Source: an uncultured Bacillota bacterium (lineage in GTDB: Bacteria; Bacillota; Clostridia; Oscillospirales; Oscillospiraceae). From it: a stretch of 42,598 nucleotides of DNA. The stretch spans positions 1 to 42,598 of the forward strand of contig CANSXE010000009.1 of assembly GCA_947650875.1 (NCBI GenBank), written 5' to 3'. The first letter of the stretch is position 1; each line of letters begins with the position of its first letter. A program made the position numbers and the translations under genes. Shown one piece after another: positions 2,586 through 29,798 of the stretch. The notes under the pieces were generated by a model. It was not told the DNA's origin. It searched no databases and saw only the letters and a program-made list of their open reading frames with translations.

Positions 2586-2933
2586 TTACACGATATCCTC
2601 ACCCAGCAAAATTTTGGGCATTGTGGTTAAGCAGCGATTCCATCTTTTGTAAAACAGCTCCAGACCAAGCTTTGAAACGCGAGCGTGGGCTTCTTCGTCC
2701 TCAAGGGTCCAGTGCAGAATGTAGGTGACCTTGCCCACCCATTTTGTCAGACGAATGGGCGGTTTTCCCTCTTTGACGGCGTTAAAGCTCTCTTGCCGGT
2801 GCGTGCGTTTGATGTACTTCACATCAATCACTCCGGGCTGTGAACGATAGAAGGCGGCAACCTCTTTCATTAAAGCTTCAATTTCATCCTGTTTATCAAT
2901 TTTTGCCTCATAGATACAAATTTCGTGAAACAT
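2586..2933 (-). CDS. ABM-like dimeric alpha-beta barrel protein
   Basis: 115 aa. The opening strand (HEICIYEAKIDKQDEIEALM), a following PGVIDVKYIKR strand and a basic central segment fit the ferredoxin-like half-barrel of antibiotic biosynthesis monooxygenase (ABM/YgiN-like) proteins, which act as dimers in the cytoplasm on quinones, haem or polyketides. No catalytic residue can be assigned, so the substrate is open. It lies between malic enzyme (58 bases upstream) and the DHFR-fold reductase, and a shared transcript is plausible. The family call rests on overall pattern and is moderate. Confidence 0.55.
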   Translation of the reverse strand: MFHEICIYEAKIDKQDEIEALMKEVAAFYRSQPGVIDVKYIKRTHRQESFNAVKEGKPPIRLTKWVGKVTYILHWTLEDEEAHARVSKLGLELFYKRWNRCLTTMPKILLGEDIV

Positions 2934-2991
2934 TCCAGCACCACCCTTGTTTCGTCTTTTTCACTGGGCCGATTGACGTGTCCTCTTTCCA

Positions 2992-4164
2992 TTAAATCCT
3001 CGCCACGCCGGACTTCCGTGCGGCCTCGGCCACCGCCTTGGCCACGGCGGGCCCCACCCGAGGGTCGAAGGCATGGGGGATGATGTAGTTCTCCGTGAGT
3101 TCCTCCTCAGAAATCAGCCCGGCCAGGGCCTGGGCAGCGGCCAGCTTCATCTCCTCGTTGATGTCGCTGGCCCGGACGTCCAGCGTCCCCCGGAACACGC
3201 CAGGGAAGGCCAGCACGTTGTTGATCTGGTTGGGGTAGTCGCTGCGGCCGGTGGAGATTACCTTGGCCCCGCCCGCCTTGGCGTCATCGGGGAAAATTTC
3301 CGGGGTGGGGTTGGCGCAGGCAAAGACGATAGCGTCTTTATTCATAGTTTTTACCATCTCGGTCGTGACGGTGCCAGGAGCGGACACGCCAATGAACACA
3401 TCAGCCCCCACCAGGGCATCGGCCAGGGAACCGGTCCGTCTCTCCAGGTTGGTGACCTGTGCCATCTCCTCTTTGATCCAGTTCAAGCCCTCACGCCCGG
3501 CGTAGATAGTCCCCTTGCGGTCACACATGGTAATATGCCGGAAGCCGGCAGACAGCAGCAGCTTGACAATAGAGACGGCGGCAGCCCCGGCGCCGGAGGT
3601 AACCACCCTGACTGCATCTCTTTTCTTCCCCACCACCTTCAGCGCGTTGGTCAGCCCGGCGAGGGTGATGATGGCGGTGCCGTGCTGGTCGTCATGGAAG
3701 ATGGGGATATCGCATTTCTCCTTCAGCTTCCGCTCGATCTCAAAGCACCGGGGGGCGGCGATATCCTCCAGATTAATGCCTCCGAAGGAACCGGAGATGT
3801 TATAAACCGTCTGAACGAACTCATCCACGTCCTTGGTTTTCACGCATAGGGGAAACGCATCCACCCCGCCGAAGGATTTGAACAGAACGCATTTGCCCTC
3901 CATTACAGGCATACCGGCTTCGGGGCCAATGTCACCCAGGCCCAGAACGGCGGAACCGTCGGTGATGACGGCCACTAGGTTGTGCCGTCGAGTGAGCTCA
4001 TAGCTCCTGTCGATGTCCTCCTGAATGGCCAGACAGGGCTGGGCCACGCCGGGAGTGTAGGCGAGAGACAGGGAATCCTTGTCATTGGCGAGCACGGTGG
4101 CCACTACCTCGATTTTGCCCTTCCATTCGCCGTGCAGACGCAGACTTTCTTTTGCATAATCCAT
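2992..4164 (-). CDS. Malic enzyme (malate dehydrogenase, oxaloacetate-decarboxylating)
   Basis: 390 aa, the usual length of short bacterial malic enzymes. It converts malate plus NAD(P)+ to pyruvate, CO2 and NAD(P)H in the cytoplasm. Visible motifs: AYTPGVA (catalytic Tyr36), EGKCVLFKSFGG with the catalytic Lys at 91, NLEDIAAPRCFEIE (metal ligands, 131-144), FHDDQHGTAI (157-165), and a Rossmann turn GAGAAA (191-196). A second nucleotide-site signature, CANPTPEI, lies near residue 285. It has its own promoter and a GGGAG ribosome site. NAD versus NADP preference cannot be read from the sequence. It is divergent from the NSS transporter gene. Confidence 0.95.
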   Translation of the reverse strand: MDYAKESLRLHGEWKGKIEVVATVLANDKDSLSLAYTPGVAQPCLAIQEDIDRSYELTRRHNLVAVITDGSAVLGLGDIGPEAGMPVMEGKCVLFKSFGGVDAFPLCVKTKDVDEFVQTVYNISGSFGGINLEDIAAPRCFEIERKLKEKCDIPIFHDDQHGTAIITLAGLTNALKVVGKKRDAVRVVTSGAGAAAVSIVKLLLSAGFRHITMCDRKGTIYAGREGLNWIKEEMAQVTNLERRTGSLADALVGADVFIGVSAPGTVTTEMVKTMNKDAIVFACANPTPEIFPDDAKAGGAKVISTGRSDYPNQINNVLAFPGVFRGTLDVRASDINEEMKLAAAQALAGLISEEELTENYIIPHAFDPRVGPAVAKAVAEAARKSGVARI

Positions 4165-4212
4165 ATATATTTCTCCCTTTCTTCTGAACTGAGTATAGTT
4201 TTCGCTGATCTT

Positions 4213-4240
4213 ATTATACTAAACTCTGGAAAAAGTGCAA
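4213..4240 (-). promoter_or_regulatory. Sigma-A promoter of malic enzyme
   Basis: Minus strand: TTGCAC (4235-4240), 16 bases, perfect TATAAT (4213-4218), about 50 bases before the malic enzyme ATG. Confidence 0.7.
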
Positions 4241-4322
4241 TGGGCACTTGGATTTTATGCGTTTTCTCGGCTTTTTCCTCACAAATCCCCGCTTTTTTGG
4301 CCCGATTTTATCACTTTCACCG

Positions 4323-4351
4323 TTGACGGAGACGGATATTTCTGGTAAAAT
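4323..4351 (+). promoter_or_regulatory. Sigma-A promoter of the NSS transporter
   Basis: TTGACG (4323-4328), 17 bases, TAAAAT (4346-4351). The ATG at 4402 follows an AGGAGG site. Confidence 0.75.
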
Positions 4352-4401
4352 GTCGTTTAACTGGCATTTCAGTGTGAATAAATTGTAAACAGGAGGAAAT
4401 T

Positions 4402-5844
4402 ATGGAACAACATCATCACAGAGGAGAATGGGGCAGCAACCTGGGCTTCCTCATGGCTGCCGTGGGCTCCGCAGTGGGCCTGGGCAACATCTGGGGCTTT
4501 CCCTATAAAATGGGAGACAATGGCGGGTTCGCCTTTTTGGTTATCTATCTGATCCTGGCTGCCACAGTGGGCTTCAGCATTATGCTCTGCGAGCTGGCCA
4601 TCGGCCGGCGGGCAGGCCGCAGCGTTCTGGTGAGCTATCAGCAGGCCGCCGGTCCCATGGGCACCTTCCTGGGCTTTTTGGCCATGCTCTCCCCCTTCCT
4701 GATTCTCAGCTTCTACACCGTGCTGGGCGCCTACTGCATCGAGTATATGTCCCTGAACATGGCCGACCTGGCCTTTAGCGTAGCGGCTGCGGCCGGCATG
4801 TCCGGCGGCGACTCCTTTGCCGCCGTGCGCTCCAACCAGTTTGGCGCTGTGGCGTTCACCTTCATCTTTATCTTCATCTGCTTCCTTATCATCCGGGGCG
4901 GCATCAAGGACGGCATCGAGAAGTTTAACAAAATCGGTATGCCCGCCCTGTTCATTATGCTGGTTATCGTGATTGTCCGGGCCGTCACTCTGCCCGGAGC
5001 CGGCGAGGGCCTGTCCTTTATGTTCGCCCCCGACCTGACCCCGCTCACCAGCCTGAAGGGCTTCCTCGGCGTGCTCTCCGCCGCCGGCGGGCAGATGTTC
5101 TTCTCCCTGTCCCTGGCCATGGGCATCACCGTCACCTACGGCTCCTACCTGAGCAAGAAGGAGAGCCTGGTGAAAAACTCCCTGATTATCATTATCTCTG
5201 ACACCATTGTGGCAGTCATGGCCGGTATGGCCGTTCTGCCCGCCGCCTTTGCCCTTGGCGGCCCCGACTCCGCCAAGGCGGGCCCCGCCCTGCTGTTCAT
5301 CACCCTTCAGGACGTGTTCAACGCCATGGGTCCCACCGGTCCCCTGTTTGGTGTGCTGTTCTATCTGCTGGTCATCCTGGCAGCCATCACCTCTGCTATC
5401 GCTCTGCTGGAGGTTCTGGTCACCTTCCTGTCTGATCGCATCGCTTTGAAGGGCCATACCCCCAAGCGGGCCAAGCTGGTTACCATTGTCTGCCTGGTCG
5501 TCTTTGCCGAGGCCGCACTGGTGGCCGCCGACGGCCTGGGCGCCAACGGCCTGTGGATTCCCTTCAACGAGACCGGCCGCCCCCTGGGCGCCTCCTGGCT
5601 GGACTTTATGGACTTTATCTCTGAGGGCGTGGCTATGCCTTTAGGCGCTCTGCTCATGTCCGTTGTGATTGGCTGGTTCGTCCGTCCCAAGCTGATCCGG
5701 GACGAGGTGGAGCTGGAGGGCCACAAAATGAGCAAGGGCCTGTATTCCTTCTTCGTTGCCTGCATCTGTGTGATCGCCCCCTTGGGCATGGCCTTCATCC
5801 TCTATGGCCAGCTCCAGAGCTTCTTCACCATCCCCCCCACCTGA
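4402..5844 (+). CDS. Sodium-dependent NSS-family amino-acid transporter
   Basis: 480 aa integral membrane protein. The N-terminus carries the family signature (SAVGLGNIWGFPYKMGDNGG, residues 24-43), which forms the unwound TM1 that binds Na+ and substrate in LeuT/MhsT-like transporters. About eleven or twelve hydrophobic segments follow, plus a short cytoplasmic tail. The family imports amino acids or amines by symport with Na+. MhsT and TnaT prefer large hydrophobic residues, but the substrate here cannot be read from sequence. It is a single-gene transcription unit: own promoter, AGGAGG site, and a strong terminator directly behind. Confidence 0.95.
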   Translation: MEQHHHRGEWGSNLGFLMAAVGSAVGLGNIWGFPYKMGDNGGFAFLVIYLILAATVGFSIMLCELAIGRRAGRSVLVSYQQAAGPMGTFLGFLAMLSPFLILSFYTVLGAYCIEYMSLNMADLAFSVAAAAGMSGGDSFAAVRSNQFGAVAFTFIFIFICFLIIRGGIKDGIEKFNKIGMPALFIMLVIVIVRAVTLPGAGEGLSFMFAPDLTPLTSLKGFLGVLSAAGGQMFFSLSLAMGITVTYGSYLSKKESLVKNSLIIIISDTIVAVMAGMAVLPAAFALGGPDSAKAGPALLFITLQDVFNAMGPTGPLFGVLFYLLVILAAITSAIALLEVLVTFLSDRIALKGHTPKRAKLVTIVCLVVFAEAALVAADGLGANGLWIPFNETGRPLGASWLDFMDFISEGVAMPLGALLMSVVIGWFVRPKLIRDEVELEGHKMSKGLYSFFVACICVIAPLGMAFILYGQLQSFFTIPPT

Positions 5845-21240: not shown

Positions 21241-22500
21241 TACAGTTCAACTATATTGGAAACAAGCTTGCCGCAAGGTAGCGTCTCGCATAACCCATCC
21301 CCTTTGTTATAATCCGTACAAAGGAGATGAGTATAAATGCCAAAACAATATCCAAAAGAATTTAAGAAACAAGTTACCGCTATCTGTGCCACAGGTGTTC
21401 CACTTGCAACAATCAGTGAAAAGTATCGCATATCCCTCAATACCCTCTACCGATGGCGCAAAGAGTATCAGCAGGCAGACGATTCGGGCACTATAAAAGA
21501 TTACTCCACACTCAGCCGTCAGCACGAACGTCAAAGCCACGTCCTACAAATCATTCGGCTTTCCAATATCATTGATGATGTGCCCCGCCGCAAGCGCCTT
21601 GAAATTTTGGCAAGGCTGCATAAAGAATTTGAGCAATACAGCGTTCATGAGTTGTGTGAAGCGTTAAACATTTCCCGAGGAACATTTTACAACCACATTT
21701 TTCGCAGAGCTGATCGAACAGAATATTTGCAGAGACAGCAGGAACTCATGTTACAAGTACAGCGAATTTTTGATGACAGCCAACAGCGTTTCGGGGCTGA
21801 AAAGATACGAATCATACTGGCTGAAAACGGAATCTGCGTAGGGAAGAAGCACATTAGGCAGATCATGCAGGAGCTTGGACTGACTAGCATCCGCGAAAAC
21901 GCTAAAAGCAGCTATCGTAGTCGACAAGAATATTTGAAACGCAATTTGGTCAATCAGGAATTCAGTGTGACGCGTCCCAATGAGACATGGGCCAGTGACA
22001 TCACATATTTCAAGATCAAGGGCTATGCGGTATATCTATGTGTCATTATCGATTTATTTTCCCGCATGGTGGTTGGACACCGAGTTTCCCGTAAATGTAG
22101 TACTCATTTGGTGACAGCAACATTCAAAGATGCGTTCCGAGCACGGGGTAACCCCACAGATTTGACTTTTCATAGCGACCGTGGAGGGCAGTATACCTCT
22201 GACACCTTTTTTAAGCTGCTTCAGCAGGGCGGCGTCAAGCAATCCTTCTCCCGCTCTGGCCGCCCCTGTGACAATGCAGTGGCCGAGACATTCTTTGCTT
22301 CATTTAAGCGGGAAGAAGCGTACCGAAGGGATTATTCCTCTGAGGCGGATTTTCGAAAAAGCGTAGACGAATATGTGTGTTTCTATAATGAGCAACGGCC
22401 CCATCAGACACTGGCTTACAAGTCCCCGGTACGATTTGAGGAACTTTATGGACAGAAAAAGACACAGGCTTATGAGAAAACCTGTGTCTAAAAGACGAGC
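21241..22500 (+). mobile_element. IS3-family insertion sequence (ends approximate)
   Basis: A complete transposase gene sits between a ruined ParA gene and tRNA-Pro, which marks an insertion sequence. I could not find convincing terminal inverted repeats or a target duplication, so the limits given are only the gene plus its short flanks. A hairpin (GACACAGG / CCTGTGTC, 22461-22488) overlaps the last codons of the transposase and may terminate its transcript. Confidence 0.65.
21337..22491 (+). CDS. IS3-family transposase, single open frame
   Basis: 384 aa. The N-terminal part (about 1-90) is the OrfA-type helix-turn-helix (YPKEFKKQVTAICATGVP, SLNTLYRWRKEY). It is followed by the OrfB-type HTH_21 region (RRFGAEKIR-like: QQRFGAEKIRIILAENGI) and the rve integrase core. 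The catalytic D-D-E is visible: SDITYF, HSDRGGQYTS, and the E of NAVAETFFASFKREE, plus the usual YNEQRPHQTLAYKSP end. Most IS3 members split OrfA and OrfB and join them by a -1 frameshift; here both lie in one intact frame. AAAGGAG precedes the ATG by six bases. It looks functional. Confidence 0.93.
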   Translation: MPKQYPKEFKKQVTAICATGVPLATISEKYRISLNTLYRWRKEYQQADDSGTIKDYSTLSRQHERQSHVLQIIRLSNIIDDVPRRKRLEILARLHKEFEQYSVHELCEALNISRGTFYNHIFRRADRTEYLQRQQELMLQVQRIFDDSQQRFGAEKIRIILAENGICVGKKHIRQIMQELGLTSIRENAKSSYRSRQEYLKRNLVNQEFSVTRPNETWASDITYFKIKGYAVYLCVIIDLFSRMVVGHRVSRKCSTHLVTATFKDAFRARGNPTDLTFHSDRGGQYTSDTFFKLLQQGGVKQSFSRSGRPCDNAVAETFFASFKREEAYRRDYSSEADFRKSVDEYVCFYNEQRPHQTLAYKSPVRFEELYGQKKTQAYEKTCV

Positions 22501-22596
22501 CTGGATAAATATTTTTTTGTGGCTTTTTCTCTTTTTCAGAAATGCATCGCAGATTGTCTTTTCCAAAAGTCAAGTCATTGCAACGGTTTGAGAGCA

Positions 22597-22643
22597 AAGC
22601 GGAGCCACTTTTCGATAAAAAAGTTCGAAAAGCAGCTCCGCTT
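22597..22643 (-). terminator. Large hairpin behind tRNA-Pro
   Basis: Nine-bp outer stem AAGCGGAGC / GCTCCGCTT with further internal pairing (CTTTTCGA / TCGAAAAG), five bases behind the tRNA-Pro CCA on the minus strand. The following T-run is weak (TTTGC), so it is a probable rather than certain terminator. Confidence 0.55.
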
Positions 22644-22647
22644 CACA

Positions 22648-22724
22648 TGGTCCGAGTGGCGGGATTTGAACCCACGGCCTCTTGGACCCGAACCAAGCGC
22701 GATACCAAGCTTCGCCACACCCGG
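22648..22724 (-). tRNA. tRNA-Pro (anticodon CGG), CCA encoded
   Basis: 77 nt on the minus strand. The acceptor stem CCGGGTG pairs with CACTCGG (one G-T pair), with discriminator A and encoded CCA. D-arm GCGA ... TCGC. The anticodon stem CTTGG / CCAAG encloses loop TTCGGGT, anticodon CGG (reads CCG). T-arm GTGGG-TTCAAAT-CCCGC. Confidence 0.95.
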
Positions 22725-23024: not shown

Positions 23025-23123
23025 TTACAGACTGAAAACTCTTTTGATAAACTGTTCCATACGGTCAGCACTGGCCCGCTTCATCTGTTCCATCACATGC
23101 CCATAGGAGCCATGTTGCTGTGG
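23025..23123 (-). pseudogene. C-terminal remnant of a tyrosine integrase
   Basis: Minus strand reads YGHVMEQMKRASADRMEQFI, then KRVFSL and a TAA at 23025: the end of a tyrosine recombinase, with the active-site tyrosine context (YGH). Upstream coding sequence is absent. The other end of a like integrase is the stub at 18764-18877, so the stretch between may be the eroded body of one element. Confidence 0.7.
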
Positions 23124-23173
23124 CAAATAAAAACAGCTCCACGTTGCAAGACTGCGATACCTCAACCAAGTCA

Positions 23174-23239
23174 ATCAAAATTGTTGATGTCTCACATAAA
23201 TTTTATTTGTTTGTGCGGCAAATATCTTGGTGATAAACT
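23174..23239 (+). promoter_or_regulatory. LysR-type regulated promoter, copy A (upstream of lysR)
   Basis: ATC-N9-GAT (23174-23188; a T-N11-A LysR box), 22 bases, TTGTGC (-35, 23211-23216), 17 bases, TAAACT (-10, 23234-23239). The whole stretch 23170-23243 is 84 percent identical (62 of 74, no gaps) to 27060-27133. The transcript would reach lysR after about 160 bases. Confidence 0.7.
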
Positions 23240-23404
23240 ACAATTGGAGATAAATAAGTACGTTTCTTTTTGATTAAATTCTCAGGCCTTAAGCAAACAA
23301 TAAAGAACGGCCGATAGAGAAAGCGGCGGAATTTACACAGCTTTTTTCTTTACCATATACGGTTGATTGCTCTTGGAGCGGCTTGAGTAGAAAGGATAGG
23401 TGCT

Positions 23405-24298
23405 ATGGAAATACGGAATCTGCTCACCTTTATCGAAGTGGCGAATTTACAGAATTTTACGCAGGCCAGTAAGGTATTGGGCTATTCTCAGTCCAATATC
23501 AGTGCACAAATTCGTCAGCTGGAGGAGGAACTGGGCGTTGTGCTGTTCGAGCGGATGGCTCGCGGCGTCCACCTGACCCAATATGGTCAGGAACTGCTGC
23601 CCATTGCCCGGGATGTGGTGGCGTTATCCAACCAGATGGGCCGCTTTGCCCAGACGGAGTCAGAGATTGAAGGAGTCTTGAGGGTAGGAGTTGTGGAATC
23701 CATTTTTCATACCTGTTTTGAGTCTTTGATCATCAGCTATGCGAGACGTTTCCCAAAGATAAAATTGGACCTGACGGTGGATGGGACTATGCGGCTCCAA
23801 GAACTGATACAGAAAAATCAACTGGACGTGGCCTGTATCATCAATGATCTGCTTCCCCAATCCCAGTGGAACCGATTTTACGATCAGAAGGTTAAAATTC
23901 TCCTTGTGGCGCGGCGGGAACATCCGTTGGTAAAAAAAGGGAGTATAGAGCTGTCGGAGCTTAGCCAGGAGAAGTGCATTATGATGGAAAACTCATCTCC
24001 CTATGTGGCGCATTTTTATCACCTTCTGGCTATGGAGGGCGTATGTATTGATCCCTTTTTGACCCTTCAAAGCGCTCATATGGCACGGCAACTGATTCGG
24101 CAGGAGAATTATGTGTCCTTTCTTCCGGAGTACACAGTCCAGGATCTGATCCAGCAAAATGTGCTCTGTGAGCTGAAGACCCCCGGCTATGAGCAGTGGC
24201 AGAGTATCCAGCTGATTTCTCACCTCAACAAAGTGGAGACCCGCCCCCTGCTGGGCTATGTGGAGGAAGCTAAGATAGCACTGAATCGGCTCCTGTGA
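23405..24298 (+). CDS. LysR-family transcriptional regulator
   Basis: 297 aa, standard LTTR size. The N-terminal winged helix-turn-helix is clear (LLTFIEVANLQNFTQASKVL; SQSNISAQIRQLEEELG; LFERMARGVHLTQYG), followed by a linker helix and a periplasmic-binding-like effector domain (about 88-297) with EGVLRVGVVESI at its start. The family binds T-N11-A boxes and activates with a small-molecule coinducer. It lies upstream of, and in the same direction as, the cdsB-aminotransferase-asd-aspartokinase genes, and identically spaced LTTR-like boxes occur before its own promoter and two of theirs, so it probably controls them and itself. The coinducer is unknown; an amino acid is a reasonable guess. 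Confidence 0.93.
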   Translation: MEIRNLLTFIEVANLQNFTQASKVLGYSQSNISAQIRQLEEELGVVLFERMARGVHLTQYGQELLPIARDVVALSNQMGRFAQTESEIEGVLRVGVVESIFHTCFESLIISYARRFPKIKLDLTVDGTMRLQELIQKNQLDVACIINDLLPQSQWNRFYDQKVKILLVARREHPLVKKGSIELSELSQEKCIMMENSSPYVAHFYHLLAMEGVCIDPFLTLQSAHMARQLIRQENYVSFLPEYTVQDLIQQNVLCELKTPGYEQWQSIQLISHLNKVETRPLLGYVEEAKIALNRLL

Positions 24299-24307
24299 GA
24301 GCACATC

Positions 24308-24374
24308 ATCATTTTTTTAGATTGCTCTTATTAATTCTATTCGTTTGTGCTTTCCATTTCAGAGAGTATATAAT
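24308..24374 (+). promoter_or_regulatory. LysR-type regulated promoter, copy B (upstream of cdsB)
   Basis: ATC-N9-GAT (24308-24322), 22 bases, TTGTGC (-35, 24345-24350), 18 bases, perfect TATAAT (24369-24374). The 22 bases ending in TTGTGC (24329-24350) match copy C at 19 positions. Outside this the sequence differs from copies A and C, so the shared parts are likely under selection. Confidence 0.7.
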
Positions 24375-24428
24375 TCAGGCACAGCAATAGATGGTACACT
24401 GTTTAGAAGCGAAGGAGGAATCAACTGT

Positions 24429-25709
24429 ATGGAACAGACAAACCCCAAATATGCGGCCTATATCCAGATACTTCGGGAAGAACTCGTCCCCGCGATGGGC
24501 TGCACCGAGCCCATTGCCATCGCCTACGGCGCAGCCAAAGGGCGAGAGGTGCTGGGGAAGCTGCCTGATCAGATCACCGTGGAAGCCAGCGGCAACATCA
24601 TCAAAAATGTCAAAAGTGTGGTGGTCCCTAACACCGGCGGGCTTCGCGGTATTGAGGCGGCGGCCGCTGCCGGTGCGGTGGCCGGTCAGGCCGGCCTGCT
24701 GTTAGAGGTCATCTCTCAGGTCACTCCGGAGGAGCAGGGGGAGATACGCGCCTATATGCGGGAACACCCTGTTCAAGTGGAATTCCTGGATAGCGGTCTG
24801 GTTTTTGATATTCAAATTACGCTTCGCGGCGGAGAAGATGTGGCCAGGGTCCGCATCGCCAACTATCACACCAACGTCATTCACATTGAGCGGAACGGAG
24901 AAGTGCTGCTGGATTTGCCCGTGGAGACGGATGACGAGAGCGGATTGACCGACCGCTCCCTGCTTACCATGATAGATATCTACGACTTTGCTCGAACGGT
25001 TGACCTTGATGATGTGCGGGAAATTATCGGCCGTCAGATTGAATATAACATGGAAATCTCTCAGGAGGGACTGACCCACAGCTATGGGGCCAATATTGGC
25101 CAGGTGATTCGGGCCAATTCTCACCCGAATGACAGTTTTGCCAGGGCCAAGTCTGCGGCGGCGGCCGGATCGGATGCCCGAATGGGGGGATGCGAGCTGC
25201 CCGTTATCATCAATTCAGGCAGCGGCAACCAGGGGATGACCGCCTCTGTCCCTGTCATCGTCTACGGCCGGGACATCGGCGCGAGCGAGGACAGGCTGTA
25301 CCGGGCGCTGGTCCTGTCCAACCTGATTACGATCCATCAAAAGACCCGCATCGGACGGCTATCCGCCTACTGCGGCGCGGTGAGTGCCGGCGCGGCGGCT
25401 GGAGCGGGCATCGCATATCTGGACGGCGGAGGGTATGACGAGGTTATACATACCGTGGTCAACGCTCTTGCCATCGTATCCGGGATGATCTGTGATGGCG
25501 CCAAAGCCTCATGCGCGGGGAAAATTGCCGCAGCCATTGACGCCGGAATTCTGGGTTATCTCATGTATCGGAACGGCCAGCAGTTCTACGGCGGGGACGG
25601 CATCCTCTCCACAACGGTGGAGACCACCCTGGTCAATGTGGGGCGCCTGGGTAAGGTGGGAATGCGCTCAACTGACAAAGAGATTTTGAAGATTATGCTG
25701 GGTCAGTGA
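24429..25709 (+). CDS. L-cysteine desulfidase / UPF0597 (CdsB, CyuA-type) family protein
   Basis: 426 aa from the ATG at 24429, with AAGGAGG ten bases upstream. COG3681 family: PAMGCTEPIAIAYGAAKGRE near the N-terminus, SGSGNQGMTASVPVIVYG in the middle, AYCGAVSAGAAAGAGIAYLD and GMICDGAKASCAGKIAAAID near the end. Cys25, 315, 355 and 362 are the conserved cysteine positions; in the archaeal enzyme such cysteines hold a [4Fe-4S] cluster that splits L-cysteine to pyruvate, ammonia and sulfide. Bacterial relatives may act on serine, threonine or other beta-substituted amino acids. It is first gene behind copy B of the LysR promoter and 14 bases before an aminotransferase gene. Confidence 0.9.
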   Translation: MEQTNPKYAAYIQILREELVPAMGCTEPIAIAYGAAKGREVLGKLPDQITVEASGNIIKNVKSVVVPNTGGLRGIEAAAAAGAVAGQAGLLLEVISQVTPEEQGEIRAYMREHPVQVEFLDSGLVFDIQITLRGGEDVARVRIANYHTNVIHIERNGEVLLDLPVETDDESGLTDRSLLTMIDIYDFARTVDLDDVREIIGRQIEYNMEISQEGLTHSYGANIGQVIRANSHPNDSFARAKSAAAAGSDARMGGCELPVIINSGSGNQGMTASVPVIVYGRDIGASEDRLYRALVLSNLITIHQKTRIGRLSAYCGAVSAGAAAGAGIAYLDGGGYDEVIHTVVNALAIVSGMICDGAKASCAGKIAAAIDAGILGYLMYRNGQQFYGGDGILSTTVETTLVNVGRLGKVGMRSTDKEILKIMLGQ

Positions 25710-25723
25710 AAGGAGTAACAGGT

Positions 25724-26995
25724 ATGCCGTACCGAGATCTCAGTTGTAATGAGCTGAAAAAAGAGTATCAAAAAGTGAAAGCCGAGTTTGAGGGCTGGCG
25801 GACGAAGGGGCTGTCCCTGAACATGGCCCGGGGCAAGCCTGGCAAAGAGCAGTTGGATATGGTCTCCGACATTTTGACCGTACTGGCAAAGCCTGAAGAC
25901 TGTGTAGACGGCACGCTGGATGCACGCAACTACGGAGAGATCAGAGGCGTCCCCAGTTCGCGGGTGCTCTTTGCGGATATTTTGGGCTGCCGTCCGGAGC
26001 AGGTCTTTGTGGGGGGCAACGCCAGCCTTCAGCTGATGTATGACACGATTGCCAAAGCTTACACCCACGGCTTACCCCACTCCTCCAGGCCCTGGTGTAA
26101 AGAGGAGAAGATAAAGTGGCTGTGCCCTGCCCCCGGCTATGATCGCCATTTTAGGATCACCGAGAGCTTTGGCTTTGAGCTGATCACTGTCCCCATGAAA
26201 GAGACCGGCCCGGATATGGATTTTGTCGAAAAGCTGGTTGCCGAACCGGCAGTCAAAGGCATGTGGACCGTGCCAAAATACTCTAATCCTGAGGGTATTA
26301 TTTATTCCAAGGAGACTATCCACAGGCTGGCGGCGCTGAAACCCGCCGCTCCCGATTTCATGCTCATGTGGGACAACGCTTACTGTATCCACGAATTCGA
26401 GGGGGAATATGTTCCCTTCCCTGATATTCTGTCACTGTGTGAAGCGGAGGGGAACGGAGACATGGTGTTTGAATTCGCCTCTACCTCTAAGATCACCTTG
26501 CCCGGTGCAGGTGTGGCTTGCTTTGCCTGCAGTGAGACCAACATGGCCCATATGATCTCTGTTATGGACGCCCAGGTCATCAGTTTCGACAAGGTGAACC
26601 AGCTGCGCCATGTTAAGTATCTCAAAAACAAGGCCCATGCCCTGGAGCTCATGAAAAAGCATGCCGCCATTCTGGCCCCCAAATTCCAGACGGTGCTCCA
26701 AATCCTTTCCAGGGAGCTGGGCAATTTGGAAATTGTCTCCTGGAGTCATCCCAAGGGCGGCTACTTCATATCCCTGAACACTGCGCCCGGTTTAGCCAAA
26801 CGCACCCTGACCTTGTGCCGGCAGGCCGGCGTTACCATGACGGATGCGGGAGCCACCTTCCCGTATGGCCAAGACCCCCAGGACAGTAATATCAGGATCG
26901 CCCCCTCTCTGCCTCCGATTGGAGAGCTGGAGCAGGCTATGACCGTTTTTTGCTGCTGCCTAAAACTGGCGGCACTGGAGACTCTAAGGAATTGA
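25724..26995 (+). CDS. PLP-dependent aminotransferase, aspartate aminotransferase AspAT4-like
   Basis: 423 aa, start at 25724 behind AAAGGAG. Large-family fold type I enzyme: N-terminal arm LSLNMARGKPGKEQLDMVSD, YSNPEGIIYSKETIHRLA, MLMWDNAYCIHEFEG with the cofactor-binding Asp and Tyr, and FASTSKITLPGAGVA with the PLP lysine at 256. The wording fits the Asp_aminotransf (PF12897, AspC4/YhdR-neighbour) group, which transfers amino groups between aspartate or alanine and 2-oxo acids. It would link oxaloacetate to aspartate for the downstream aspartokinase, or recycle pyruvate from the desulfidase. The specific substrate is inferred, not visible. Confidence 0.9.
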   Translation: MPYRDLSCNELKKEYQKVKAEFEGWRTKGLSLNMARGKPGKEQLDMVSDILTVLAKPEDCVDGTLDARNYGEIRGVPSSRVLFADILGCRPEQVFVGGNASLQLMYDTIAKAYTHGLPHSSRPWCKEEKIKWLCPAPGYDRHFRITESFGFELITVPMKETGPDMDFVEKLVAEPAVKGMWTVPKYSNPEGIIYSKETIHRLAALKPAAPDFMLMWDNAYCIHEFEGEYVPFPDILSLCEAEGNGDMVFEFASTSKITLPGAGVACFACSETNMAHMISVMDAQVISFDKVNQLRHVKYLKNKAHALELMKKHAAILAPKFQTVLQILSRELGNLEIVSWSHPKGGYFISLNTAPGLAKRTLTLCRQAGVTMTDAGATFPYGQDPQDSNIRIAPSLPPIGELEQAMTVFCCCLKLAALETLRN

Positions 26996-27011
26996 ATATG
27001 CGTTTCACTCC

Positions 27012-27043
27012 AAGGAGGGGCAGCGGTATCGCTGCCCCTCCTT
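27012..27043. terminator. Strong hairpin between aminotransferase and asd, no T-run
   Basis: Perfect 14-bp stem AAGGAGGGGCAGCG / CGCTGCCCCTCCTT with loop GTAT, 17 bases behind the aminotransferase stop. It lacks the T-run of a classic intrinsic terminator, so it may pause, stabilise an mRNA end or partly terminate. The following LysR promoter copy suggests a transcript boundary here. Confidence 0.5.
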
Positions 27044-27063
27044 GCCATTGGGAGAAAAAGTCA

Positions 27064-27129
27064 ATCAAAAATATTGATGACTTGCATAAATTCTATTTGT
27101 TTGTGCCGGGAACACTTTGGTGATAAACT
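27064..27129 (+). promoter_or_regulatory. LysR-type regulated promoter, copy C (upstream of asd)
   Basis: ATC-N9-GAT (27064-27078), 22 bases, TTGTGC (-35, 27101-27106), 17 bases, TAAACT (-10, 27124-27129), leaving about 40 bases to the asd ATG. See copy A for the 74-base alignment. Confidence 0.7.
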
Positions 27130-27173: not shown

Positions 27174-28187
27174 ATGAAAAATCTTTGTATTGCTATTTTA
27201 GGCGCCACCGGTGCTGTCGGGACCGAGATGCTCAATGCGCTGAATGAGCGGGGCATCCCCTGTGACAGCCTGCGTCTCTTGGCCGCCCCCGTAGAAGCGG
27301 GAAAAAAAATCCTTTTCCGGGACCGTGAGCTGACAGTGGAGGGGGCATCGGAAAACTCCTTCCAGGGAGTGGATATCCTGCTGGTTGCTGCGGCCAACGA
27401 AATCAGCGAGCGTTTTTCCCCCCTCGCGGTTCAGCAGGGCGCCATTGTCATCGACAACAGCTCGGCCTACCGCCTGGACCCCAAGGTGCCCCTGGTGGTC
27501 CCCGAGGTGAACCCACAGGACATCGAGACCCACAGCGGGATTATCGCCAACCCCAACTGCTCCACCATCATCGCCATGGTGGCCGTCAATCCGCTGTACC
27601 GCAGGCATCGGGTCAGGCGGATGACCGTCTCCACCTATCAGGCGGTCTCCGGCGCAGGTATCCGGGGTCTCCAGGAGCTGGAGCGGCAGGTGGCCGCCTA
27701 CCTCAGGGGTGAAGCGCTGGAGCATGAGACTTTTCAGCACCAGATCGCCTTCAATGTGATCCCCCACATCGAATCCTTCCTGGAAAACGGGTATACCAAG
27801 GAGGAGATGAAGATGCACAATGAGGGGCGCAAAATCCTCCATGACGATCAGCTCACCGTCACCTGCACCTGTGCCAGAGTTCCTGTATTCCGCAGCCACT
27901 CCGAAGCCATCCAGCTGATGTTTGACGAGGAGGTGGACGTGGAGGAGGCCCGGGAGCTGCTTCGGACCGCCCCGGGGGTCAAGCTTATGGACGACCCGGC
28001 GCACAACGTCTACCCCATGCCTGTGGACACCTCCAACCAGGACCTGGTGTATGTGGGCCGTATCCGCCGGGACCTGGCAGACAGGCACATGCTGAATCTG
28101 TGGTGCTGCGGCGATCAGATTCGCAAGGGCGCTGCGGTAAACGCCATTCAGATCACACAGCTGGTCATCCAAAAGTATTTTGCCTGA
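27174..28187 (+). CDS. asd: Aspartate-semialdehyde dehydrogenase
   Basis: 337 aa from the ATG at 27174 behind AAAGGAG. NADPH-dependent reduction of aspartyl-4-phosphate to aspartate semialdehyde. The Rossmann turn GATGAVG is at 10-16, the catalytic cysteine is Cys129 in NPNCSTI, followed by STYQAVSGAG (about 161-170), the IPHIESFLENGYTKEEMKM segment (substrate and metal region), and RVPVFRSHSEAI (catalytic His region). Canonical length. It is separately promoted by LysR copy C and sits 33 bases ahead of aspartokinase, so the pair makes aspartate semialdehyde together. Confidence 0.95.
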   Translation: MKNLCIAILGATGAVGTEMLNALNERGIPCDSLRLLAAPVEAGKKILFRDRELTVEGASENSFQGVDILLVAAANEISERFSPLAVQQGAIVIDNSSAYRLDPKVPLVVPEVNPQDIETHSGIIANPNCSTIIAMVAVNPLYRRHRVRRMTVSTYQAVSGAGIRGLQELERQVAAYLRGEALEHETFQHQIAFNVIPHIESFLENGYTKEEMKMHNEGRKILHDDQLTVTCTCARVPVFRSHSEAIQLMFDEEVDVEEARELLRTAPGVKLMDDPAHNVYPMPVDTSNQDLVYVGRIRRDLADRHMLNLWCCGDQIRKGAAVNAIQITQLVIQKYFA

Positions 28188-28220
28188 TTTTTCCCGGGCA
28201 GAAAGCGGAGAATGGAAGCA

Positions 28221-29345
28221 ATGAAAAGGATTGTATTAAAATTTGGAGGGACCTCGGTGGCGGATGAGAGCTCCAGGCAGGCCGCCACCGCCATCATCCG
28301 GGAGACCAGGGAGGAGTGCGAAAAGCTCATCGTCGTGGTCTCCGCCATGGGCCGCAAGGGCGCCCCTTACGCCACCGATACCCTGCTCCAGGTATACGGG
28401 GAGGGGCAGGAGCTGCCCAAAAACCGGGAACAGGATATGATCTACGCCTGCGGAGAGATCATTTCCGGCTCCATACTGTCCCACGAGCTGAACACACAGG
28501 GGATCAGGAGCGTATTCCTCACCGGCGGACAGGCCGGGATAGAGACGGACGACCACTACTCCGAGGCCAATATCCTCACAGTACATACTGACAACCTGGA
28601 GCGGTGGCTGGCAAAGGGCTATGTGGTCATTGTGGCCGGCGGCCAGGGCATGACGGCTGGAGGCGATATCACGGCCATCGGCCGGGGGGGCAGCGACACC
28701 ACCGCCTGCGTGATTGGCTACTACACCGGCGCGGACCAGGTGCGCATCTACACCGATGTGGACGGCATATACACCGGCGACCCCCGGATCATCAAAAGAG
28801 CCCGGAAGATTCCCTACCTCAGCTACGGCCAGTGTCATCGGCTGGCCTCCTACGGCGCCAAGGTCATCCACCCCCGGGCGGTGGCCTACTCGGAACGGGG
28901 CCGCCGGAACGTGCTCAGCGTCCGGTCCACATTTGTCAGAGGACCTGGCACCCGCATCGGCGACTATGAGAGCAAATGGAGCGGGATCACCGCCTCCAGA
29001 AATCTGCTGACTTTGACCACTCCGCCGGAGAGACGGGAGGAGCTCCTCCAGACACTAAAAAAATATGGCGCGGAGCCCCGCTATGCGCTCTCCGACGAAA
29101 ACGGCTTCCACTGCGGTGTGGATAGAAGCTTAATGGGCATGGAGGGTATCCCGGAGGGGCAGCTCAGGGATGTGATCTTTGCGGTGGGTCCGTCGGCCAC
29201 ACCGGAGAATATATCCGGAAAGCTCTGCGACGGCTGGGACGGAGAGGTGCTGCGGCTGTCGGAGGACAGCGTGGCCGTTACTGTGGCCCAAGCGCTCTAC
29301 GAGCGGCAGATCAATCTGCTTCATGACGGTATATGCCTAATTTGA
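28221..29345 (+). CDS. Aspartokinase, short C-terminal form
   Basis: 374 aa from the ATG at 28221 (GGAG ten bases upstream); an ATG at 28212 is also in frame. Phosphorylates aspartate. KFGGTSVAD (7-15), VVVSAMGRKGAPYATD, IGRGGSDTTAC and YTDVDGIYTGDPRII form the kinase core (1-about 240), with YLSYGQCHRLASYGAKVIHP. The remaining 130 residues are shorter and less conserved than the tandem ACT domains of the usual lysine- or threonine-sensitive enzymes (about 400-450 aa), so feedback control may be altered. The pairing with asd in a LysR unit suggests an isoform dedicated to one product rather than the general supply. Confidence 0.93.
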   Translation: MKRIVLKFGGTSVADESSRQAATAIIRETREECEKLIVVVSAMGRKGAPYATDTLLQVYGEGQELPKNREQDMIYACGEIISGSILSHELNTQGIRSVFLTGGQAGIETDDHYSEANILTVHTDNLERWLAKGYVVIVAGGQGMTAGGDITAIGRGGSDTTACVIGYYTGADQVRIYTDVDGIYTGDPRIIKRARKIPYLSYGQCHRLASYGAKVIHPRAVAYSERGRRNVLSVRSTFVRGPGTRIGDYESKWSGITASRNLLTLTTPPERREELLQTLKKYGAEPRYALSDENGFHCGVDRSLMGMEGIPEGQLRDVIFAVGPSATPENISGKLCDGWDGEVLRLSEDSVAVTVAQALYERQINLLHDGICLI

Positions 29346-29366: not shown

Positions 29367-29759
29367 ATGGTGAACCCTCAAATTAACCAAACAGAGCCCT
29401 TTTTGATCAACCTGATCCCGGAACGGACCGATTTCCCCGTCCCCTCCCAGACCGCCGCAGAGAATTGCCGGTACATGAAGCTGAAGCTGGGCGCCATGCC
29501 CTTCCTGATCCCCTCTCTGACACAGGACAGCACGGTCCTCCGCGTGAACTGCCGTTTACTGTACGGAAAAAGCTGGCAGGAGAGGATGATCTCCTCTCCC
29601 GATACCCTCTCCCGCCTGCTGCTGGAGGAGTTCCGCCTGGCCGTAGCCCCCGAGGGCGGAGCGTCAGACGCCTTTCAGATCTCCGGGGCCGTATCGGAGG
29701 AAAACATGCACGCCGGACTGGGACGGCTGGAGAGACTGATGAGCGATATCATTCAATAA
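29367..29759 (+). CDS. Unknown protein, 130 aa, possible aminotransferase small-domain relic
   Basis: Good AGGAGG site before the ATG, 21 bases after aspartokinase, so it is probably expressed with it. No catalytic motif is visible and there is no signal peptide. The second half (VLRVNCRLLYGKSWQERM, SRLLLEEFRLAVAPEGGA, then SEENMHAGLGRLERLMSDI) resembles by eye the C-terminal small domain of fold-type I PLP aminotransferases or PatB/MalY C-S lyases, which lacks the PLP lysine on its own. The likeness is only in pattern. It could be a detached domain, a remnant with a lucky start, or an unrelated family. Confidence 0.6.
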   Translation: MVNPQINQTEPFLINLIPERTDFPVPSQTAAENCRYMKLKLGAMPFLIPSLTQDSTVLRVNCRLLYGKSWQERMISSPDTLSRLLLEEFRLAVAPEGGASDAFQISGAVSEENMHAGLGRLERLMSDIIQ

Positions 29760-29769
29760 CAGAACAACT

Positions 29770-29798
29770 TTGACAAATGCTCGACAAGGAGGTATGAT
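29770..29798 (+). promoter_or_regulatory. Independent sigma-A promoter for the last two operon genes
   Basis: Perfect TTGACA (29770-29775), 17 bases, TATGAT (29793-29798). It lies between the 130-aa gene and the ATC-hydrolase-like gene, with no LysR box before it, so these genes can be expressed without the regulator. Confidence 0.75.

Follow-up and report, generated by a model that had tools for sequence, protein, structure and literature searches.

A small and very probable LysR-type regulon of three promoters in an aspartate-pathway gene cluster of an uncultured Oscillospiraceae bacterium

A stretch of 42,598 nucleotides from an uncultured Bacillota bacterium (contig CANSXE010000009.1; hereafter, the window) carries on its forward strand genes for a LysR-type regulator, a serine dehydratase alpha-chain family enzyme, an aminotransferase, aspartate-semialdehyde dehydrogenase (asd), and aspartate kinase, together with three promoter-like sites designated A, B, and C (Table 1). 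The dehydratase-family enzyme is presumably L-cysteine desulfidase-like. The aminotransferase gene is probably in one operon with the dehydratase gene, and the kinase gene is probably in one operon with asd. No ACT domain was found in the kinase by a Pfam search, even at E-values up to 5. The regulator was identified as a LysR-type protein by the domains HTH_1 (72.5 bits; cut-off, 26.6) and LysR_substrate (103.6 bits; cut-off, 28), and the solved structure nearest to it in sequence is that of another LysR protein (7w06; E = 2.4e-22). Among the 25 of 54 NCBIfam matches listed, no model exceeded its own cut-off; the best was phn_lysR (122.9 bits), and CidR, GltC, AlsR, and other LysR models showed nearly full-length similarity at 100 to 115 bits, although the regulator of the window fell far below the cut-off of each.

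Table 1. Genes and sites of the cluster, in positions of the window
Feature	Position	Strand	Details
Site A	23171..23239	+	TCA plus box ATC-N9-GAT at 23174-23188
Site A, second repeat	23196-23210	+	ATAAATTTTATTTGT; centre at +22
Site A, putative promoter	23211-23216; 23234-23239	+	-35 TTGTGC; -10 TAAACT
LysR-type regulator (lysR)	23405..24298	+	297 aa; Pfam HTH_1, LysR_substrate; proposed binder of A, B, and C
Site B	24308..24374	+	Box at 24308-24322; second repeat at 24330-24344
Site B, putative promoter	24345-24350; 24369-24374	+	-35 TTGTGC; 18 bp; -10 TATAAT
Serine dehydratase alpha-chain family enzyme	24429..25709	+	PF03313 (E = 7e-62); proposed target of B
Aspartate aminotransferase type Ic (Rv3722c-like)	25724..26995	+	NF053594 over cut-off
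Site C	27061..27129	+	TCA plus box at 27064-27078; second repeat at 27086-27100; conserved in sister genome G035
Site C, putative promoter	27101-27106; 27124-27129	+	-35 TTGTGC; -10 TAAACT
Aspartate-semialdehyde dehydrogenase (asd)	27174..28187	+	NF011456 and TIGR01296 over cut-off; proposed target of C
Aspartate kinase	28212..29345	+	PF00696 only
Protein without family, 3' of the kinase gene	29367..29759	+	130 aa; counterpart in G035 is 57% identical

The best match of a simple sigma-70 promoter scan of the window was another promoter-like site, at 29770-29798 (11/12). The genes past it, which encode an amino-thiazoline hydrolase-like protein and a NhaC transporter, may therefore lie outside the LysR operon. 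No known RNA element was detected before lysR or asd, and only two tRNAs in the window reached the cut-off. The cluster is accessory. At E ≤1e-60, this kinase was found only in the genome of the window and in the sister genome G035 among 64 genomes of the genus, and at E ≤1e-55 only the genome of the window and G006 contained such a LysR. A second dehydratase gene, 83% identical to that of the cluster, is present in the same genome (G000:C60, L197), and about 16 further genomes within the genus have dehydratase genes 79-86% identical to that of the cluster. Directly to the left of site A lie an IS3 transposase gene and a tRNA gene (21337-22724 region) and a short reading frame on the reverse strand (approximately 23025-23110), which resembles an integrase tail; this would suit a hot spot for mobile elements as the possible location of the cluster.

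The initial annotation of this DNA had described three copies of one spaced motif, and an exact pattern search for ATC-N9-GAT, 22 bases, and TTGTGC located them at 23174-23216, 24308-24350, and 27064-27106, all on the + strand. In the draft genome (2,086,837 bases, or 2.09 Mb, in 154 contigs; 77% complete), these were the only three exact matches, so that none lay outside the window, and the pattern read backwards gave no match. Three matches with one mismatch were all on other contigs. A search with two mismatches gave 5 matches against 3.1 expected by chance; such a search therefore carries no information, whereas the exact matches do. The spacing of 17 or 18 bp claimed between the -35 and -10 sequences was also found, namely 17 bp in A and C and 18 bp in B, as were the 62 ungapped identities over 74 bases between A and C. 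B is identical to A at 31 of 43 positions from the box to TTGTGC and to C at 30 of 43. In addition, A and C share the TCA 5' of the box and 21 of 27 bases past TTGTGC, including TTGGTGATAAACTACAA. Their likeness thus covers more than the two functional pieces and, because it continues through the -10 region, suggests a copied promoter. It had been argued that the parts shared by the copies are the functional ones; the box and the 22 bp are indeed conserved, but the likeness of A and C is probably due in part to duplication.

The putative full recognition box is TCAATC-N9-GATTGA. If transcription starts 7 bp past the -10 sequence, the box lies at about -72 to -58, with its centre at about -65. 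It is a T-N11-A box with 6, 3, and 6 of 7 dyad pairs in A, B, and C, respectively. A second, weaker repeat adjoins the -35 sequence in all three sites, 22 bp from the box centre to centre; in A, B, C, and the site C of G035 its dyad averages 4.5 of 7 pairs, with an equal 4.5 at +20, and its form is T-N11-G, not T-N11-A. At +31, A, B, and C have only 0, 1, and 0 of 7 pairs, respectively (mean of the four window-type copies, 0.25), and hence no third repeat. TTGTGC is a weak -35 sequence, and the sigma-70 scan listed none of A, B, and C.

To compare these sites with those of related regulators, G006 (LysR 43% identical) and the best 80 loci from a scan of 84,980 species genomes were used. Nine of these loci (L010-L018; LysR 40-53% identical) were taken as orthologues; eight are near full length, and L018 is cut at residue 126. 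The remaining 71 loci are 21-44% identical, values of at least 37% spanning only residues 1-145 or less. In a tree of 10 orthologue rows, from which L018 was left out as cut, the orthologous LysRs formed one group (support, 100/99), and the LysR of the window paired with that of L010 (94/96, just below the tool's mark of 95).

In seven relatives (G006, L010-L014, and L016; LysR 43-50% identical), lysR is divergent from the target gene. Their sites were first noticed by eye 5' of lysR and then extracted. All seven read away from lysR as TCA, ATC-N9-GAT (TAT in L012), 22 bp, a -35 sequence, 17 bp, and a -10 sequence. The site is thus conserved with the orthologous regulator at all seven divergent loci; at the three further loci (L015, L017, and L018), the site 5' of lysR is degenerate and points at lysR. 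The -35 sequence is TTTACA in six relatives and TTTTCA in L012, and G035 has TTGTGT. Read in the opposite direction by eye, the box end GATTGA (or nearly so) forms the -35 sequence of lysR in the relatives, with a -10 sequence 17 or 18 bp on.

The site of L010, whose LysR is nearest to that of the window, faces asd, which is also the gene that site C precedes; asd is followed there by genes for an ACT-less kinase and homoserine dehydrogenase. In L011 (PF01053), L012, L014, and L016 (one cluster), the site faces a gene for a gamma-lyase-like PLP enzyme, as does the site of G006, where the enzyme is 77% identical. In L013, a run of N follows the site, and about 3.3 kb away there is a gamma-lyase gene in the same orientation as the site. 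Genes for subunits of 2-oxoacid:ferredoxin oxidoreductase come next in L011, and at least the start of one is present in G006. The genome with the L018 LysR contains a weak model match (E = 0.0019) on another contig before a methionine-gamma-lyase-like gene whose product is 62% identical to the L011 target. In L010, Pfam showed no ACT domain in either the kinase (3631-4791) or the homoserine dehydrogenase (2627-3601). The lack of this domain in both kinases and in the homoserine dehydrogenase suggests freedom from end-product feedback.

A matrix was built from the sites of the seven relatives only, with no sequence of the window. Among all positions of the window on both strands, C (35.1 bits), A (24.8 bits), and B (19.7 bits) ranked first to third, and the next scores were 3.6 (B shifted by 4) and then a background of 2.1. 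The relatives scored 39-52 bits when each was left out in turn, the null reached at most 8.8, and on this scale C, A, and B scored 20.1, 10.8, and 7.2, respectively. The recovery of all three sites by a matrix blind to the window supports in silico the reading of A, B, and C as LysR sites with which the analysis began. The T-N11-A box at the usual recognition position is likewise borne out, since the box, its position, and the exact 22 bp are conserved in the relatives. As for the second conserved piece that had been proposed, the 22-bp spacing is kept, but TTGTGC is not conserved, TTTACA taking its place in relatives.

The repeats of the relatives were then compared with those of known LysR promoters. 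Mean dyad values in the seven relatives peaked at +25 (5.1 of 7 pairs), +31 (4.7), +11 (4.4), and the box (4.1). The dyad at +25, AAAAC-N5-GTTTT, is the highest of all centres and overlaps the second and third repeats. The repeat at +31, 31 bp from the first, reads ATTTG-N5-CAAAT with 4 to 5 of 7 pairs, is by eye T-N11-A in six of the seven, and contains TTTACA, so that it lies over the -35 sequence. The repeat at +22 is better in window-type copies than in the relatives (4.5 versus 3.1 of 7 pairs). The promoters of the window have lost the +31 repeat that is present in the relatives.

In an excerpt of PMC5002191, the OxyR, IlvY, and CynR promoters are described with IR1 at -66, IR2 at -44, and IR3 at about -35, and the GcvA and MetR promoters with IR1 and IR2 only (MetR, ATGAA-N5-TTCAT at -63 and -41); in the model given there, the regulator occupies the first and third repeats when inducer is absent and the first and second when it is present. 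As far as this excerpt goes, the relatives resemble OxyR, IlvY, and CynR promoters in having repeats at 0, weakly at +22, and as T-N11-A at +31 over the -35 sequence, the first overlapping the lysR promoter, and their distances of 31 and 22 bp equal those from IR1 to IR3 and from IR1 to IR2. The window differs from this type in that its promoters have no +31 repeat and its lysR is not divergent: lysR and the three promoters are all on the + strand, whereas the divergent layout of regulator and target is present in the seven relatives. A, B, and C, with a strong first repeat, a weaker second one 22 bp on, and no third, are more like the GcvA and MetR promoters of the same excerpt, although the regulator and the sequence are different and the three promoters stand in tandem in one cluster. 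If the model in the excerpt applies, promoters that have lost the +31 repeat should lack a held-off state and behave like those of GcvA and MetR.

We consider it likely that the LysR encoded at 23405-24298 binds A, B, and C and controls them as promoters, and very probable that they are LysR-type promoters of one small regulon that is new in its details and ordinary in kind. In the proposed switch, a LysR dimer would be anchored on the 15-bp box, centred at about -65, and a second dimer would occupy the weaker repeat, which lies 22 bp further on and adjoins the -35 sequence, and would recruit RNA polymerase to promoters with a poor -35 sequence of their own (TTGTGC). A single regulator would thus co-activate lysR from A, the dehydratase/desulfidase-aminotransferase operon from B, and the asd-aspartate kinase operon from C. 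In the divergent relatives, LysR would block its own promoter by occupying the -35 sequence of lysR, and the third repeat over the target -35 could hold the target off. Self-control, which the initial annotation had expected, is likely, in that the box of the relatives supplies the -35 sequence of lysR and copy A is the best candidate for a lysR promoter in the window. Since lysR is co-directional with the activated promoters and the third repeat is lost, positive feedback would be likelier than self-repression. As a guess, the inducer is an amino acid of the aspartate family, a sulphur amino acid, or the corresponding 2-oxo acid.

The specificity of the sites was examined with a sequence model of the seven relatives (R1), which was run with stricter filters on 64 genomes of the genus. 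Thirty-three matches at E ≤0.039 were taken, with the site C of the window excluded; one was G006, itself in the model, and 32 remained. The exact pattern is confined to the window. Of the 32 matches, 20 lie within 150 bp of the start of a LysR gene, and all 20 read away from that gene. The LysRs behind them are 24-31% identical to that of the window, and many of the 20 sites are near-copies of one another; the remaining 12 matches include the site C of G035. The sites of the window align to R1 over positions 1-42 or 4-42 with E-values of 0.002, 0.046, and 0.054 (14.8-19.3 bits), which are weak owing to the different -35 half. Higher scores, up to 29 bits, were obtained for several sites preceding other LysRs; a site on C21 of the same genome, before another LysR, reaches 16.3 bits, above A and B. 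With an ungapped matrix of box plus 22, the sites of other LysRs reach 21.9 against 18.1, 14.5, and 27.3 for A, B, and C, and the C21 site falls to -13. Nine of the 20 score at least 9 bits over this stretch and 11 score below 4; among the nine, six score at least as high as B, and four or five at least as high as A. About half of these sites thus have exactly this layout, and the others fit it only in part or with gaps. A script confirmed the spacing of 22 and a T-N11-A 15-mer at +31 in four sites before other LysRs (L093, L094, L097, and L100) and in the site before the gamma-lyase gene of the L018 genome (L109). A variable-gap pattern ending in TTTACAAAT gave nine matches in the 64 genomes; all three at 22 bp lie before LysR genes, and the six at 13, 15, 15, 25, 29, and 29 bp, which include two pairs of near-copies, have no LysR match in the locus. 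Small as the numbers are, this agrees with a 22-bp LysR layout. Because such sites also stand before other LysRs, the layout is a LysR signature of wider reach. A site-like sequence was also seen at L133 3097-3158 (G107:C4:100596-100657), without any visible gene to go with it. As G110 has a gamma-lyase gene at seemingly the same place, judged from shared neighbours, the sequence may be a promoter that outlasted its gene.

These observations give some room to the idea that another LysR-family protein encoded in the genome, and not the neighbouring one, acts at the sites. Once G006 is set aside, most of the best model matches in the genus stand before other LysRs, nearly half of those fit the ungapped layout, and scores like those of A and B recur among them, so that A and B are not separable from these sites by score alone. 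The sequence of the sites says only that a LysR is meant; that it is this LysR is indicated by the place of the gene in the cluster and by the shared asd target. The exact sites of the genome, however, are all close to this lysR, the nearest orthologue is directed at asd just as C is, and the only other match resolved in the same genome, C21, fails on the box-plus-22 matrix. A different LysR is thus regarded as quite improbable. Chance likeness of AT-rich promoter regions might be invoked, as AT-rich intergenic sequence inflates matches and two-mismatch matches came at the chance rate. Yet when the local sequence was used to generate a first-order AT-rich null of 2 million positions, none attained the score of A or C on the matrix of the relatives and 0 to 2 attained that of B, depending on matrix length and background. 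Chance was accordingly rejected for A and C and is unlikely for B, and together with the genome-wide uniqueness of the exact motif and the conservation across species this makes it, as an account of the whole, extremely improbable.

Another explanation is that A and C are alike through promoter duplication and B through general LysR features, so that only C, and perhaps B, works and A is a relic. The A/C identity that continues through the -10 sequence and beyond accords with this, as does the position of A, about 160 nt from the lysR start and with an insertion sequence and a tRNA gene as neighbours. Nevertheless, A scores well with the matrix blind to the window, it retains most pairs of the box dyad and 5 of 7 pairs of the +22 repeat, and the sigma-70 scan listed no + promoter between A and lysR; moreover, a copied site is compatible with the function of both copies. 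We therefore consider a relic at A improbable, and the control of all three promoters by the neighbouring LysR remains the preferred reading.

A broader reading is offered only tentatively and would sooner prove wrong than right: this LysR clade would govern a dissimilatory route from aspartate through homoserine to 2-oxobutyrate, and in the window the switch would have been rewired from a self-repressing promoter of the repress-then-induce type to three tandem positive-feedback copies without the repression repeat. The enzymes of the route occur in differing parts per host, namely aminotransferase, ACT-less aspartate kinase, asd, ACT-less homoserine dehydrogenase, gamma-lyase, and 2-oxoacid:ferredoxin oxidoreductase. 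A caveat is that in the genome of the window the homoserine dehydrogenase gene and the best gamma-lyase-family gene are on other contigs (C33 and C17, respectively). Among the matches listed in a search of openly accessible literature on LysR with gamma-lyase, asd, aspartokinase, and cysteine desulfidase, the clade was not found. A LysR clade for which no name was found would thus gain a likely binding site, promoter layout, and targets from sequence alone. Promoters with and without the third repeat would form a natural series for the switching of LysR between repression and activation, and the aspartate-pathway enzymes under one regulator are possibly feedback-free.

The sister genome G035 is 81-86% identical to the cluster in a piece of the dehydratase gene, the aminotransferase gene, asd, and the kinase gene. 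It keeps site C, with spacings of 22 and 17 bp, before an asd that is 86% identical. Its contig ends within the dehydratase gene, so that of the three sites the comparison covers C only, and the search for such a LysR gave no match in G035. Apart from the cluster copies of the window and G035, the genus has 53 other matches to the target of B; 30 of them (29 loci and the copy on C60) were examined with a matrix that also contained A, B, and C, and none had a site. The site as a general feature of the dehydratase/lyase gene family was thus rejected on the 30 cluster-less loci examined. Between the aminotransferase gene and site C, a strong 14- to 15-bp hairpin without a T run lies at 27011-27045 (27005-27060: -33.8 kcal/mol, z = -5.7); it was not seen by eye at this place in G035. 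This hairpin is possibly the 3' end of the transcript from B.
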